Source of the DNA: Leifsonia shinshuensis
Lineage (GTDB): Bacteria > Actinomycetota > Actinomycetes > Actinomycetales > Microbacteriaceae
Length of the DNA stretch: 64,000 bases
NCBI RefSeq assembly: GCF_031456835.1
Contig: NZ_JAVDVK010000001.1
Span: 2,294,001-2,358,000 of the forward strand
Reading direction: 5' to 3'
The notes below the pieces were generated by a model that did not search any database, had not been told where the DNA came from, and saw only the letters and a list, made by a program, of their open reading frames with translations. The translations under genes and the position numbers were made by a program. Shown piece after piece: positions 46,256 to 50,200 of this stretch (positions are counted from its first letter, which is position 1; each line of letters starts with the position of its first letter).

Positions 46256-47683
46256 ATGACCACGGAACTCCCGGGGGGCGGCAGGGGCGACGACGCCCTG
46301 GTGACGACCACGAGCCCGCTCTTCGCCGACAGTGCGACCGATCGCCGCATCCCCCGCCGCTGGGTGGTGTCGTGGGCGCTCTGGGACTGGGGCGGCGCCG
46401 CGTTCAATGCGGTCATCACGACGTTCGTGTTCACCGTCTACCTGACGAGCAGCCTGTTCGTCGACCCGGCGGTCGTCAGCGCGAAGAACGCCGAGTCCGG
46501 AACGTCCGGCCCGGCGCACACCGCCTACGACGCCGCGGTCGCCGTGCTGTCGAGCGGACTCGCGTGGGGAGTCGGGATCGCGGGAATCGTGGTCGCGCTC
46601 ATCGCGCCGGTGCTGGGCCAGCGCACCGACGGCTCCGGCCGCCGCAAGCTGTGGCTCGGCGTCAATACCGGGGTCGTGGTGCTCGTGACGGCACTGATGT
46701 TCTTCGTCGTGGGACAGCCGTCCTACTTCCTGCTCGGCGTCGCCCTCGTCGCCATCGGGACGATCTTCTACGAGATCGCCACCGTCAACTACAACGCGAT
46801 GCTCGTCCAGGTCTCGACGCCCAAGACCGTGGGAAGGGTCAGCGGCTTCGGCTGGGGCGCCGGCTACCTGGGCGGCATCGTCCTGCTGCTCATCGTGTAC
46901 TTCGGGATGGTCGTCGGCGACGGCGGGCTGCTGCACGTCCCGACCGAGAACGGCCTGAACATCCGCATCATCGCGCTGATCGCGGCGGCGTGGACGCTCG
47001 TGTTCTCACTCCCGGTGCTGTTCACGGTGCCGGAGATCGCCCCGAACGCCCGCACGCCGCGCGTCGGCTTCTTCGCGTCGTACGCGGTGCTGGTGCGCGA
47101 CATCGGGCGCCTGTGGAAGGAGAGCCGGAACACCGTCCTCTTCCTCATCGCGTCCGCGCTGTTCCGCGACGGCCTGGTCGGCGTGTTCACGTTCGGCGGC
47201 ATCCTGGCCCAGGGGACGTTCGGCTTCACCAGCGGCCAGGTCATCATCTTCGCGATCGCGGCGAACGTCGTCGCGGGCGTCAGCACGCTGCTCTCCGGCC
47301 GGCTGGACGACCGCTTCGGCCCGAAGGCCGTCATCGTCACGTCGCTCGTCGGCCTGATCGTCGCTGGACTCGCGGTCTTCTTCACGCACGACCTCGGCGC
47401 CGCGGCCTTCTGGGTCGGCGGCCTTGTGCTGTGCCTGTTCGTCGGGCCGGCCCAGTCGGCCAGCCGCACGTTCCTGGCCCGGGTTACGCCGGCCGGCCGC
47501 GAGGGCGAGGTGTTCGGTCTCTACGCGACGACCGGTCGCGCGGTGTCGTTCCTCGCGCCGACGCTGTTCGCGATCTTCGTCGCGGTGGGCGGGGCCCAGT
47601 TCTGGGGCATCCTGGCGATCGTGCTGGTGCTCGCGATCGGGCTCGCGCTGCTGCTCCCCGTGCGCGCCCCGCGCCGCGCCTGA
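46256..47683 (+). CDS. MFS transporter, UMF1-like
   Basis: 475 aa, 12 membrane helices. 'VVSWALWDWGGAAFNAVITTFVFTVY' in helix 1, 'GQRTDGSGRRKLWL' (motif A) and 'SGFGWGAGYLGGIVLLL' match the UMF1 branch (relatives of Atg22 and BtlA-like effluxers). The substrate is unknown. TACGCT ends 6 bp before the ATG, suggesting a leaderless start. It converges with the MarR gene over a palindromic terminator. Confidence 0.9.
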   Translation: MTTELPGGGRGDDALVTTTSPLFADSATDRRIPRRWVVSWALWDWGGAAFNAVITTFVFTVYLTSSLFVDPAVVSAKNAESGTSGPAHTAYDAAVAVLSSGLAWGVGIAGIVVALIAPVLGQRTDGSGRRKLWLGVNTGVVVLVTALMFFVVGQPSYFLLGVALVAIGTIFYEIATVNYNAMLVQVSTPKTVGRVSGFGWGAGYLGGIVLLLIVYFGMVVGDGGLLHVPTENGLNIRIIALIAAAWTLVFSLPVLFTVPEIAPNARTPRVGFFASYAVLVRDIGRLWKESRNTVLFLIASALFRDGLVGVFTFGGILAQGTFGFTSGQVIIFAIAANVVAGVSTLLSGRLDDRFGPKAVIVTSLVGLIVAGLAVFFTHDLGAAAFWVGGLVLCLFVGPAQSASRTFLARVTPAGREGEVFGLYATTGRAVSFLAPTLFAIFVAVGGAQFWGILAIVLVLAIGLALLLPVRAPRRA

Positions 47684-47732: not shown

Positions 47733-47763
47733 GATGCTCGAATTCCGGGCGGATTCGAGCATC
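47733..47763. terminator. Bidirectional terminator-like palindrome
   Basis: Perfect 11-bp arms GATGCTCGAAT (47733-47743) and ATTCGAGCATC (47753-47763) with a 9-nt loop, between the convergent MFS stop (47683) and the marR stop (47763-47765). The last base of the stem touches the marR stop codon. Confidence 0.7.
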
Positions 47764-48431
47764 TAGTCTCCGCTCGACGGCTCCTCGGGCGGGGTGGGGC
47801 GCGGCCAGGCCCGCACGAAGCGGTCGAAGAGCTCCGCGAAGGTGCGCGCCTCCTCGGGCGTGAAGGCGGCGAGCGCCGTCTCGACCGAGGAGCGGCGGTG
47901 GGTGCGCAGCTCCCCGAGCAGCGCCCGGCCGGAGGTGGTGAGCTGGATGAGCGCGCGGCGCGCGTCCGACGGGTCCGGGATGCGGCGCACCAGCCCCCGC
48001 TCGACGCCCTCCTGCACGAGGCGGCTCGCGCGCGGCTGGTCCACACCGATCGCAGCGGCGATGCCGGAGACCGAGAGGCTGCGGCCCTCCGCATCCGCCG
48101 CTTCGAGCGCCTCGAGCATGCGCACGCGGGCGATCCGCCCGAGCGATCCGTCGCGCCCGCCGCGCCGGCCGGGGCCGGGACGCGCGGAGTCGCCGAACGG
48201 CATGCCGCCGAAAGGTGCGCCGCCGGACTGACCGACGAAGGGTGCGCCGCCGAACGGCGGGCCCCAGTGGCCGCCGTGATGTCCGTGGCCGTGCCCGTGG
48301 GCCGCGCCCTCCGCCCACGGCGGACGGCGCCGCGACTGGTCGCGGCGGACCGCGAGCAGCGCGTGCTCGATCATCGCGACGATGTCCGCTTGCGGCGGAA
48401 TCCCGGAATCTTCTTGACCTTCACCGCTCAT
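47763..48431 (-). CDS. MarR-family regulator with His/Gly-rich insert
   Basis: 222 aa. Helix 1 (about 12-32) is separated from the winged helix (about 99-165: 'LGRIARVRMLEALEA', 'SVSGIAAAIGVDQPRASRLVQEGVERGLVRRIPDPSDARR') by some 65 residues of low complexity. These include a histidine cluster at 45-55 ('HGHGHGHHGGH') and Gly/Pro/Phe repeats. The MarR wing and C-terminal helices are normal. The ATG at 48431 has TATAGT 7 bp upstream, so it may be leaderless. Divergent from another His-rich MarR gene across a 56-bp gap with repeated operators; the histidines suggest metal sensing (inference). Confidence 0.88.
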   Translation of the reverse strand: MSGEGQEDSGIPPQADIVAMIEHALLAVRRDQSRRRPPWAEGAAHGHGHGHHGGHWGPPFGGAPFVGQSGGAPFGGMPFGDSARPGPGRRGGRDGSLGRIARVRMLEALEAADAEGRSLSVSGIAAAIGVDQPRASRLVQEGVERGLVRRIPDPSDARRALIQLTTSGRALLGELRTHRRSSVETALAAFTPEEARTFAELFDRFVRAWPRPTPPEEPSSGD

Positions 48432-48434
48432 GCA

Positions 48435-48465
48435 TGTAACTATACATTCACTTGTAACAGTACAT
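48435..48465. promoter_or_regulatory. Tandem operator sites between divergent marR genes
   Basis: TGTAACTATACAT (48435-48447) and TGTAACAGTACAT (48453-48465) are direct repeats 18 bp apart. Each contains the dyad TGTA-N4-TACA, and a further TACATGTA dyad spans 48461-48468. The sites fill the AT-rich gap between the two start codons and cover both promoters. Confidence 0.8.
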
Positions 48466-48487
48466 GTAATTGGAAGGGAGAGCCCCG

Positions 48488-49639
48488 ATGACGAACATCG
48501 ACGACTCCACACAGACGCCGCCCGGATACTGGTTCGGCGAGATCGAAGGCCTGCTGCACGAGCGGATGCGCGACGCGCTGGCCGACCTGGGACTGCGCCG
48601 CGGAAGCTGGCGCATCCTGCACACCCTCGCGGAGGGACCGGCGACGGCCGAGCAGCTCGCAGAGCGCCTGCCGCACGGCGGCCCGCACGGTGACCGCGCG
48701 GGCCGCGACGGACGCGGCGGCCCCGACGGCCGGGACCCGCGGCCGCAGCATGACGAGCGCCGCGGGTACGGGTTCCGCCCGGGATGGCGCGGCCAGGAGC
48801 CGCGCGACGAGCGCGACGTCGCCGCCGGCGACACGCGCCGGGACGGCTACCGCGGCGAGGGCGACGGGCACCGGCACGGCGTCGACCAGCCGCATCCGGA
48901 CCACCACGAGAGCGACCCCCAGGAGTCGAACCGCCACGACGGCCACCACGACGGCGACCGCCACGACCGCGACCACGACCACGACCACGAGCGCGATCAC
49001 GAGCGCGGCCACCACCACGGCGGCCACCACCACCCCCACGGCTTCGAGGAGGCGGTCGAGCGCGGCTACCTGCGCGGCTTCGACCGCGGCTTCACCCTCG
49101 GAACGCTGCGTGCCGGCCAGCCGGGCGGCCCCTTCGGGCCGCACCCGTACGGCGGTTTTCCCGTGGGGGCGCACGGCGGCTTCCCCGGCGCCCACGCTTT
49201 CCCCGGAGCGTACGGCGGCCCGGCCGGCCCCGCGGGCTACGGCTACGTCTACGCCTACGGCCCGTTCGGTCCTCGACGCCCCGGCCGTCCCTTCGACCGC
49301 CGCTTCGGCGGGTTCGATCGCGACCGTCGCCGCGGGCACCGCATCCAGCGCGTGCTGTCCGACTTCGTCGAGCGCGGCTGGGTCTGGTTCGACGGCGACA
49401 GCGCCACGCTGACCGACGAGGGCCGCGCGGCCCACGACCGCGCCTTCGAGCGCGTGGCGACGGTGCGGGCGGAACTGGCCAACGGCATCACCGAGGCCGA
49501 TTACGCGACCACCATGGCGACGCTGGAGCGGATGGCGCGCAACCTGGGCTGGCGCCCGGCGCGCAGCCAGAACCCGGGCACCGGCGAGGCCGTCTCCCCC
49601 GACGACGCTCCCGGCTCCGCCCCGGACGGCGCCGCCTAG
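48488..49639 (+). CDS. MarR/PadR-like regulator with a 220-residue His-rich insertion inside the HTH
   Basis: 383 aa. Residues 13-62 form MarR-like helices 1-3 ('YWFGEIEGLLHERMRDALADL', 'GSWRILHTLAEGPATAEQLAERL'). Residues 284-355 resume with the recognition helix and wing ('HRIQRVLSDFVERGWVWFDGDSATLTDEGRAAHDRAF') and dimer helices. Between them lie about 220 residues: an Arg/Asp/Gly stretch, then 20 histidines within 128-184 alternating with Asp, then Gly/Pro/Tyr/Phe repeats. One open frame, GGGAG before the ATG. This is consistent with a metal-responsive regulator paired with the divergent MarR; function inferred, not known. Confidence 0.82.
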   Translation: MTNIDDSTQTPPGYWFGEIEGLLHERMRDALADLGLRRGSWRILHTLAEGPATAEQLAERLPHGGPHGDRAGRDGRGGPDGRDPRPQHDERRGYGFRPGWRGQEPRDERDVAAGDTRRDGYRGEGDGHRHGVDQPHPDHHESDPQESNRHDGHHDGDRHDRDHDHDHERDHERGHHHGGHHHPHGFEEAVERGYLRGFDRGFTLGTLRAGQPGGPFGPHPYGGFPVGAHGGFPGAHAFPGAYGGPAGPAGYGYVYAYGPFGPRRPGRPFDRRFGGFDRDRRRGHRIQRVLSDFVERGWVWFDGDSATLTDEGRAAHDRAFERVATVRAELANGITEADYATTMATLERMARNLGWRPARSQNPGTGEAVSPDDAPGSAPDGAA

Positions 49640-49648
49640 TATGGACGC

Positions 49649-50200
49649 ATGACGCCACCCCGCGAAGAGGTCGTTCTGCTCGCCGAGGATGGCACCCCCA
49701 TCGGCACCGCGGACAAGGCGACGGTGCACACGACGGACACGCCGTTGCACCTCGCCTTCTCGTGCCACCTCTTCGACGGGGAGGGCCGCATCCTGGTCAC
49801 CCGCCGCGCGCTGAGCAAGGCGACGTGGCCCGGGGTGTGGACCAACTCGTTCTGCGGCCACCCCGGCCCGGGCGAGGCGATCGAGGACGCCGTTCGGCGC
49901 CGCGCGGCCGACGAGCTCGGCGCGACGATCGACAACCTGGAGCCGGTGCTGCCGGACTTCCGCTACCGCGCCGTGGATGCGGCGGGCATCGTCGAGTACG
50001 AGGTGTGCCCGGTCTACACGGCGACCGTCGTCGGCGACCTCCGCCCGTCCGCCTCCGAGGTGGCCGAGTGGGAGTGGGTCGACCCGCGCTCGCTTCTGGG
50101 CGCCGTCGAGCTGACCCCGTGGGCGTTCAGCCCGTGGCTCACACTGCAGCTGCCGGCTCTCTACGCCGACGACAGCCTCGAAGCTTCGGGTCAGCTGTGA
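49649..50200 (+). CDS. idi: Isopentenyl-diphosphate delta-isomerase, type I
   Basis: 183 aa Nudix-fold enzyme interconverting IPP and DMAPP for isoprenoids. 'LAFSCHLFDGEGRILVTRR', 'WTNSFCGHPGPGE' (active-site Cys and metal His) and 'VEYEVCPVY' (catalytic Glu) are the type I landmarks. TAGTAT (49637-49642), sharing its TAG with the upstream stop, ends 6 bp before the ATG: a leaderless start of its own 9 bp after the His-rich regulator. Confidence 0.95.
   Translation: MTPPREEVVLLAEDGTPIGTADKATVHTTDTPLHLAFSCHLFDGEGRILVTRRALSKATWPGVWTNSFCGHPGPGEAIEDAVRRRAADELGATIDNLEPVLPDFRYRAVDAAGIVEYEVCPVYTATVVGDLRPSASEVAEWEWVDPRSLLGAVELTPWAFSPWLTLQLPALYADDSLEASGQL

Follow-up and report, generated by a model that had tools for sequence, protein, structure and literature searches.

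We analyzed a divergent pair of MarR-type genes, here given the names marH and marI, in a 64,000-nt stretch of the Leifsonia shinshuensis genome (contig NZ_JAVDVK010000001.1, positions 2,294,001 to 2,358,000; hereafter the window). marH encodes a predicted canonical MarR repressor, and marI encodes a MarR-like protein whose helix-turn-helix (HTH) is not contiguous, with about 220 residues lying between helix 3 and the recognition helix. The NUDIX-family gene downstream of marI is one that we take to be idi (isopentenyl-diphosphate isomerase). The anatomy, distribution, operators, and selection of the pair are apparent from the sequences themselves. Our preferred interpretation, a tentative one to which we give close to an even chance, is a two-gene module in which marH would act as a DNA-binding repressor and marI as a MarR-derived protein partner that modulates marH. 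The HTH of marI, interrupted here and unrecognizable in other lineages, suggests a protein partner rather than a second DNA binder. No description of a marH/marI pair was found in the open-licence literature searched.

Since the partial Pfam matches of marI lie far apart, with MarR_2 at residues 35-61 (profile positions 2-30 of 61; 16.6 bits, cut-off 27) and HVO_A0261_N at residues 286-329 (positions 41-84 of 86; 27.1 bits, cut-off 35), two halves of one domain are separated in this protein, which scores below the curated MarR-domain cut-offs. When a profile of 52 hand-chosen marI proteins (of 83) was aligned with 13 insert-free relatives, the two were collinear over 138 columns (probability 99.8%, E 1.3e-29), and the single large gap fell between helix 3 and the recognition helix. 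Both results confirm an earlier reading of the window made from its letters alone (the sequence-only reading), which had placed an insert of about 220 residues inside the plus-strand HTH. The two halves are under purifying selection (dN/dS, the ratio of non-synonymous to synonymous substitution rates, of 0.12-0.54 in nine related genomes compared with the window), and seven of the invariant positions fall within the C-terminal helices (G333, D338, L346, M349, A350, N352, and G354). The closest homolog, from Leifsonia sp. 22587, is 96% identical. Profiles of marI and marH matched weakly (probability 25%, E 7.6e-4), and in a 12-hit list from the PDB one MarR chain reached E 4.5e-5, the other matches being at 0.03 or weaker.

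The insert comprises a Gly/Arg/Asp-rich stretch, a His-rich stretch, a helix-like GxxxG segment (FEEAVERGYLRGFDRGFTLG), and a Gly/Pro/Phe-rich stretch, and its DNA contains short tandem repeats. The 20 histidines in 57 residues counted by the sequence-only reading are present. Inserts were parsed in 72 of the 83 marI proteins of the search set (query included) and were 79-327 residues long (median 165.5), with 9-46 His each (median 23); the 11 proteins that could not be parsed were left out, and in five of them (P0080-P0084) the His-rich part follows the domain. An abbreviated GxxxG motif, [FYVALH][ED]xG[FY]xxG[FYV], which was picked after the motif had been seen, occurred in 63 of the 83 marI proteins, in 4 of 1660 shuffles, and in none of 120 marH proteins, and was not found in the remaining 20 marI proteins. 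The motif is internal in Leifsonia and C-terminal in P0081, P0083, P0084, L101, L123, L145, and L166. GxxxG repeats occur in FliH/YscL (PMC2674601) and a GX3 motif in the adaptor proteins Yae1-Lto1 (PMC4523923), and we regard the likeness as a lead.

The MarR_2 domain of marH exceeds the curated cut-off (40.8 vs. 27 bits), and the protein is, as had been read from its letters, a normal winged-helix MarR with a small His cluster of its own. A MarR wing motif (conserved D-x-R) was found in marH from 44 of 46 loci, and at least five His precede the winged helix in 111 of the 119 marH proteins parsed among the best 120 of 715 matches. Between the two genes lie the tandem operators over which the sequence-only reading had placed the pair. 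Across the whole single-contig 3.79-Mb genome, the exact pattern TGTAACNNTACA occurs twice, both times between marH and marI with a spacing of 18 bp. Allowing up to one mismatch gave 20 genome matches (the two exact ones included), vs. 23 for a control pattern. A wider regulon of marH and marI was rejected because exact operators occur nowhere else and one-mismatch matches do not exceed the control. A tandem TGCAACGATACA pair at 3.259 Mb, beside another gene that is presumably of the LacI type, was set aside, and a scan of positions 48300-48600 for promoters and terminators found none.

In the genus sample (28 genomes), marI was present in 26, with its halves in one open frame in 24 of these, so the insert is no peculiarity of a single assembly. 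A frameshift or assembly artifact, an outcome that the sequence-only reading had allowed for, was rejected as the general cause of the insert in view of these 24 open frames and the purifying selection on both halves. In G178 (L084) and G055 (L086) the halves lie in different frames, and these broken copies are either decaying genes or repeat-related sequence errors. The two genus genomes without marI, G301 and G320, are small (2.6-2.7 Mb), lack marH as well, and keep idi; their matches to marH are weak (31-38% identical, E 4.6e-7 to 1.3e-6) and were taken as other MarR proteins.

In the family sample (299 genomes), a marI match was found in 82 genomes and a marH ortholog in 31 (E < 1e-18; the next matches were weaker than 1e-13). 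The 82 comprise 27 with marH, 54 with a solo relative and no marH, and G123, matched only in low-complexity sequence. The partner of marH was read in all 31 marH-bearing genomes. An insert inside the partner HTH was found in 15 (six Leifsonia, two of them frame-broken; two of genus g29; five of g51; G048; and G276). In eight (G280, G079, G258, G215, G106, G240, G194, and G253) the HTH has no long insert and a His-rich C-terminal tail follows, the G253 partner having an extra loop as well and the G194 pair being inferred across a contig end. Six partners (G282, G189, G138, G049, G174, and G223) have no recognizable HTH and retain the His-rich segment, and two (G060 and G148) have neither an HTH insert nor such a segment. 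A His-rich partner, counted at seven or more His in the segment, thus occurs in 29 of the 31 genomes. By locus, no HTH was recognizable in the partners of L140, L164, L166, L167, L168, and L169.

The solo relatives, mostly 132-165 aa as called, represent a short, wingless MarR-like protein that is widespread across the Microbacteriaceae (L093-L165; e.g., L105:4810-5235), has the strongly acidic recognition-helix consensus GETxAExLxELVESGWV, and matches marH weakly in profile comparison (62.8%, E 7.1e-5). We know of no role for it. A His-rich segment, in insert or tail, was present in none of the 54 (at most two His); solo L144 has a 52-residue loop that is not His-rich, and solo L158 is odd. 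Beyond the family, a sample of 297 genomes from the order yielded marH orthologs in G434 and in eight members of genus g91 (family f7). In g91 the partner corresponds to a Brevibacterium hypothetical protein, its sequence being identical to a B. atlanticum entry. The HTH was not recognizable in the four Brevibacterium partners read among the eight loci (L200, L202, L204, and L205); the terminal helices are kept, the tail ends in AFERGFAAGFEQG, AFERGFAAGFEKG, or AFDHGFAAGYKRG, and His is low in the L200 partner (six in the stretch read).

A strict tandem operator (p <= 0.01) was found upstream in 39 of 50 pair-locus rows and in 0 of 55 other rows. Among the 11 pair rows that failed, two (L084 and L086) started at the wrong place and their sites are visible on direct reading, four come from further open reading frames (ORFs) at a pair locus, either marH or a solo copy, and the start of L162 is probably wrong. 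A relaxed form, TGT(A/C)A-N3-T(A/G)CA, was sought in the 560 nt upstream of the marH winged helix. It was present in all six HTH-less pairs of the family (shuffle expectation 0.02), in all eight Brevibacterium loci (0.03), and in 14 of the 15 loci of the C-tail set (0.06; partner read in 11 of the 15); it was absent from the 54 solo loci (0.16) and from two plain pairs, L117 and L135. In these two, the partners are short and plain, neither protein has a His-rich segment, and CAACAGTTG-like elements lie upstream of marI instead. Because the relaxed operator is kept in HTH-less loci and missing from solo loci, the operator goes with marH, and its relaxed form outlives the loss of the partner HTH.

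Profile comparison identified the C-tail form as a clear relative of marI (99.8%, E 2.3e-27), and the C-terminal profile of marI picks up the HTH-less partners of L140 (E 7e-15) and L164 (E 1e-14). A profile of 11 Brevibacterium partners matched that of C-tail marI over 127 columns (98.7%, E 1.6e-16); opposite the former HTH region the alignment shows unrelated Arg/Gly-rich sequence. This comparison supports the view that the Brevibacterium partner descends from marI. For L166-L169, position opposite marH, a C-terminal helix alike by eye, His-richness, and the tail motif in L166 lend weak support to the same descent. No Pfam HTH match was obtained for the partners of L140, L164, L167, and L200. 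On a tree of 86 rows and 126 columns with many open forks, paired marI formed two groups, largely separate from the solo proteins; the pair label needed seven changes, at least three of them demanded by well-supported branches, and at least five gains or losses were needed for HTH inserts of 50 or more residues. G048, G276, and G282 carry the paired and solo kinds adjacent, suggesting tandem duplication before the paired copy changed. Compared across lineages, the proteins form a natural series: at one end an insert-free MarR-like protein, in the middle forms with a long disordered segment within the HTH or following it, and at the other end a partner without a recognizable HTH, each altered form standing opposite one conserved repressor gene and its operators. 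To us the series is of greater interest than one unusual protein would be.

The sequence-only reading had given marI a wing along with its recognition helix. This was not borne out: relative to marH, the marI hairpin lacks seven residues, including the DARR motif, and has no wing. In the portions of a structural report consulted (PMC2650471), a minor-groove contact by the wing Arg is put forward as a general property of MarR proteins, and the arm that forms the dimer is made up of helices 1, 5, and 6. DARR lies near this proposed Arg contact. The recognition helix of marI aligns with that of marH, and the two differ in sequence (RGHRIQRVLSD in marI vs. VDQPRASRLVQ in marH). Mean net charge of the recognition helix was -4.8 in solo proteins (57 rows) and +0.9 in paired ones (45 rows; Mann-Whitney p 1e-17, with kinship ignored and the L158 row unreliable). 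Because of this acidic helix, the solo proteins look unfit for DNA binding. Homologs lacking the insert with the same DNA binding and regulon would have counted against the sequence-only reading; insert-free homologs do exist, in the form of these 54 solo proteins, but they also lack marH and the operator.

According to our preferred interpretation, marH would occupy the tandem operators and repress both divergent promoters, its own and that of marI with the downstream idi. marI, a relative of the widespread short protein and now a poor reader of DNA or none at all, would form weakly binding or non-binding complexes with marH, possibly heterodimers, and this contact would relieve repression, giving a feedback loop. 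More speculatively, the set point of the loop might be tuned by a ligand of the His-rich segments in both proteins, either metal ions or protons. In Leifsonia, idi would be co-expressed with marI, and the pair probably controls both itself and idi; the cross-regulation foreseen in the sequence-only reading is likewise supported as probable. Consistent with a protein partner, marI keeps the helices of the dimerization region, a disordered and usually His-rich segment, and often the GxxxG helix, and the two reduced genus genomes lack both genes together while retaining idi.

Several observations weigh against this interpretation. Pairs L117 and L135, without His-rich segments and without the usual operator, fail the strict test too. 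The HTH-less loci L164 (p 0.035) and L140 (p 0.09 and 0.49) also fail it and pass only the relaxed form, a pattern chosen after the sites had been seen. Partners of L167 and L168 show short, weak C-terminal matches to marI (E 0.034 and 0.0005-0.011, respectively, the lowest value being in a neighboring ORF), those of L166 and L169 show none, and the partners of L166-L169 could be replacements rather than descendants of marI. A missing Pfam HTH match is itself weak evidence, as the insert-type partner of L160 has none either. Finally, the recognition helix of Leifsonia marI is conserved, under purifying selection, and mildly basic, which would be surprising in a mere remnant; in Leifsonia, marI may still contact DNA through this helix, and two operators could serve two proteins. 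Our confidence in the preferred interpretation is held down because the paired recognition helices are mildly basic and, in Leifsonia, conserved.

These last features agree with a rival view in which both proteins read DNA and regulate each other, marI taking one operator with its insert looped out and marH the other; the dN/dS values well below 1 in both marI halves fit this as well. We consider it unlikely, since the two sites are near-identical yet the recognition helices differ, marI is wingless, and the relaxed operator persists where the partner HTH is unrecognizable. A different proposal, that of the sequence-only reading, is a folding switch: the His-rich insert, sitting in the turn of the HTH, would respond to metal or pH and in this way condition the binding of marI to DNA. 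The 20 His in 57 residues and the occurrence of His-rich segments in both partners agree with it, as do two neighbors of pairs in genus g85: a cation-efflux gene convergent with marH in L101 (L101:5831-6745) and, in L145, a CbiX-type chelatase gene that immediately follows marI (L145:3624-4349). These two genes are a weak point in favor of a metal role, the other 18 of the 20 neighbor genes scanned with Pfam in 11 loci outside the genus being not recognizably metal-related; nor was a metal gene recognizable in the two flanking genes scanned in the window (the Atg22-like transporter and NUDIX genes). His content varies several-fold and is low in one Brevibacterium partner. Conservation of the insert holds for the presence of a His-rich segment and not for its place, which is inside the HTH in 15 of the 31 genomes. 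Because the same kind of segment also lies in the C-terminal tail or beside no recognizable HTH in sister lineages, the folding switch is not favored; it is possible and not needed, and we judge it quite improbable. Metal or pH sensing by the pair is possible, on the basis of composition and the two neighbors.

Neutral drift would need no function for the low-complexity segment at all, a vestigial HTH simply tolerating repeat expansion in a G+C-rich genome. The tandem repeats in the insert, its wide range of lengths, and the broken frames in two genus genomes are compatible with drift, which we nevertheless hold to be very unlikely: His-rich segments occur in nearly all marH-bearing genomes vs. 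none of the solo relatives, and the GxxxG motif is far more frequent in marI than in shuffles, whether it is internal or C-terminal. Taken as a whole, the interpretation offered by the sequence-only reading is partly supported.

Coordinates of the pair and the genes beside it are given in Table 1. In all 26 genus loci idi lies 3′ of marI on the same strand; as estimated from tblastn ends, the gap is 190 bp or less in 20 of them, and in seven the genes overlap by 4 bp. In Leifsonia L069, L070, L082, and L083 the spacing is 2.1-2.7 kb. The Atg22-like/MFS transporter gene was present in each of the 25 other genus loci retrieved, as well as in the retrieved stretch of 43 of the 54 solo loci, where idi is sometimes near too; it is a possible further target of the pair. 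The phytoene-synthase gene of this genome lies ~1 Mb from the pair, and a role as carotenoid-cluster regulator was rejected on that account. An isoprenoid ligand for marH is an alternative suggested by analogy, because an idi-linked divergent MarR regulator, CrtR, answers isoprenoid pyrophosphates according to the sections consulted of PMC5401885.

Table 1. Positions in the window of marH, marI, their parts, their predicted operators, and neighboring genes.
Feature	Position	Strand	Basis
marI, 383 aa, MarR-like, HTH split by about 220 residues	48488..49639 (ATG 48488, stop 49639)	+	ORF, Pfam, profile alignment
Helices 1-3 of the MarR-like domain of marI, residues 13-62	48524..48673	+	Pfam MarR_2 at 35-61; collinear with insert-free relatives
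marI insert, residues 63-283, low complexity, His/Gly/Arg/Asp/Pro-rich, tandem repeats in part	48674..49336	+	Composition, profile alignment
His-rich stretch of marI, residues 128-184, 20 His in 57	48869..49039	+	Composition
GxxxGxxxGxxxG segment of marI, residues 186-207, FEEAVERGYLRGFDRGFTLGTL	49043..49108	+	Motif scan
Recognition helix and short wingless hairpin of marI, residues 284-312	49337..49423	+	Alignment with marH and relatives
C-terminal helices of marI, residues 313-355, matching the MarR dimerization region	49424..49552	+	Profile alignment
marH, predicted canonical MarR repressor, 222 aa	47763..48431 (ATG 48431, stop 47763)	-	Pfam MarR_2 40.8 bits, cut-off 27
marH His cluster (residues 45-55), within a Gly/Pro/His-rich linker that precedes the winged helix	48267..48299	-	Sequence
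Winged helix of marH, residues 98-165, MarR wing motif DPSDARR	47937..48140	-	Pfam, alignment
Operator 1 (predicted), TGTAACTATACA	48435..48446	.	Sequence, genome pattern scan
Operator 2 (predicted), TGTAACAGTACA, 18 bp from operator 1	48453..48464	.	Sequence, genome pattern scan
NUDIX-family gene read as idi, 9 bp downstream of marI, probable operon	49649..50200	+	NUDIX Pfam; spacing in the 26 genus loci
Atg22-like/MFS transporter gene near the pair	46256-47683		Pfam

Should marI act by protein contact, the two genes would constitute a self-regulating MarR heterodimer system that carries its own inhibitor, and the role of His-rich disordered segments in bacterial regulators could be tested directly on a pair of small genes with a single 56-bp promoter region. 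Among known systems, the MarR family (MarR_2, PF12802; e.g., NMB1585, as described in excerpts of PMC2650471) is matched by marH in its winged helix, its wing Arg motif, the divergent gene order, and the inverted-repeat operators, and by marI in helices 1-3, the recognition helix, and the C-terminal helices. marI differs in being below the Pfam cut-off, wingless, and interrupted, and its counterparts in other lineages have an unrecognizable HTH. CrtR of Corynebacterium glutamicum, in the parts of the reports consulted (PMC5401885, PMC6739363), is a MarR repressor divergent from isoprenoid genes, with idi among them in some genomes. It resembles our pair as a MarR regulator linked to idi, a comparison of gene context alone, and differs in being one regulator, and in having no His-rich segment described in those parts; the phytoene-synthase gene, as noted above, is distant from the pair here.

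AdcR and ZitR are zinc-dependent MarR regulators with structured metal sites. They share with marH the MarR fold and perhaps a response to metal, whereas marH has a His-rich linker in place of such sites and scores 16.4 bits against NCBIfam AdcR_fam_Zn_TF, below the equivalog cut-off of 175. Id-type inhibitors of eukaryotic basic helix-loop-helix (bHLH) factors are dimerization partners without a DNA-reading element. It is doubtful, and nonetheless conceivable, that marI is their bacterial counterpart, having repeatedly lost or broken its HTH in the Microbacteriaceae and Brevibacterium, keeping the dimer helices and a mobile disordered module made up of the His-rich segment and, often, a GxxxG helix, and titrating the repressor under metal or pH control. 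The fold of the Id proteins is unrelated to that of marI, and the likeness, a dimerization partner without a DNA-reading element, would be a functional analogy.

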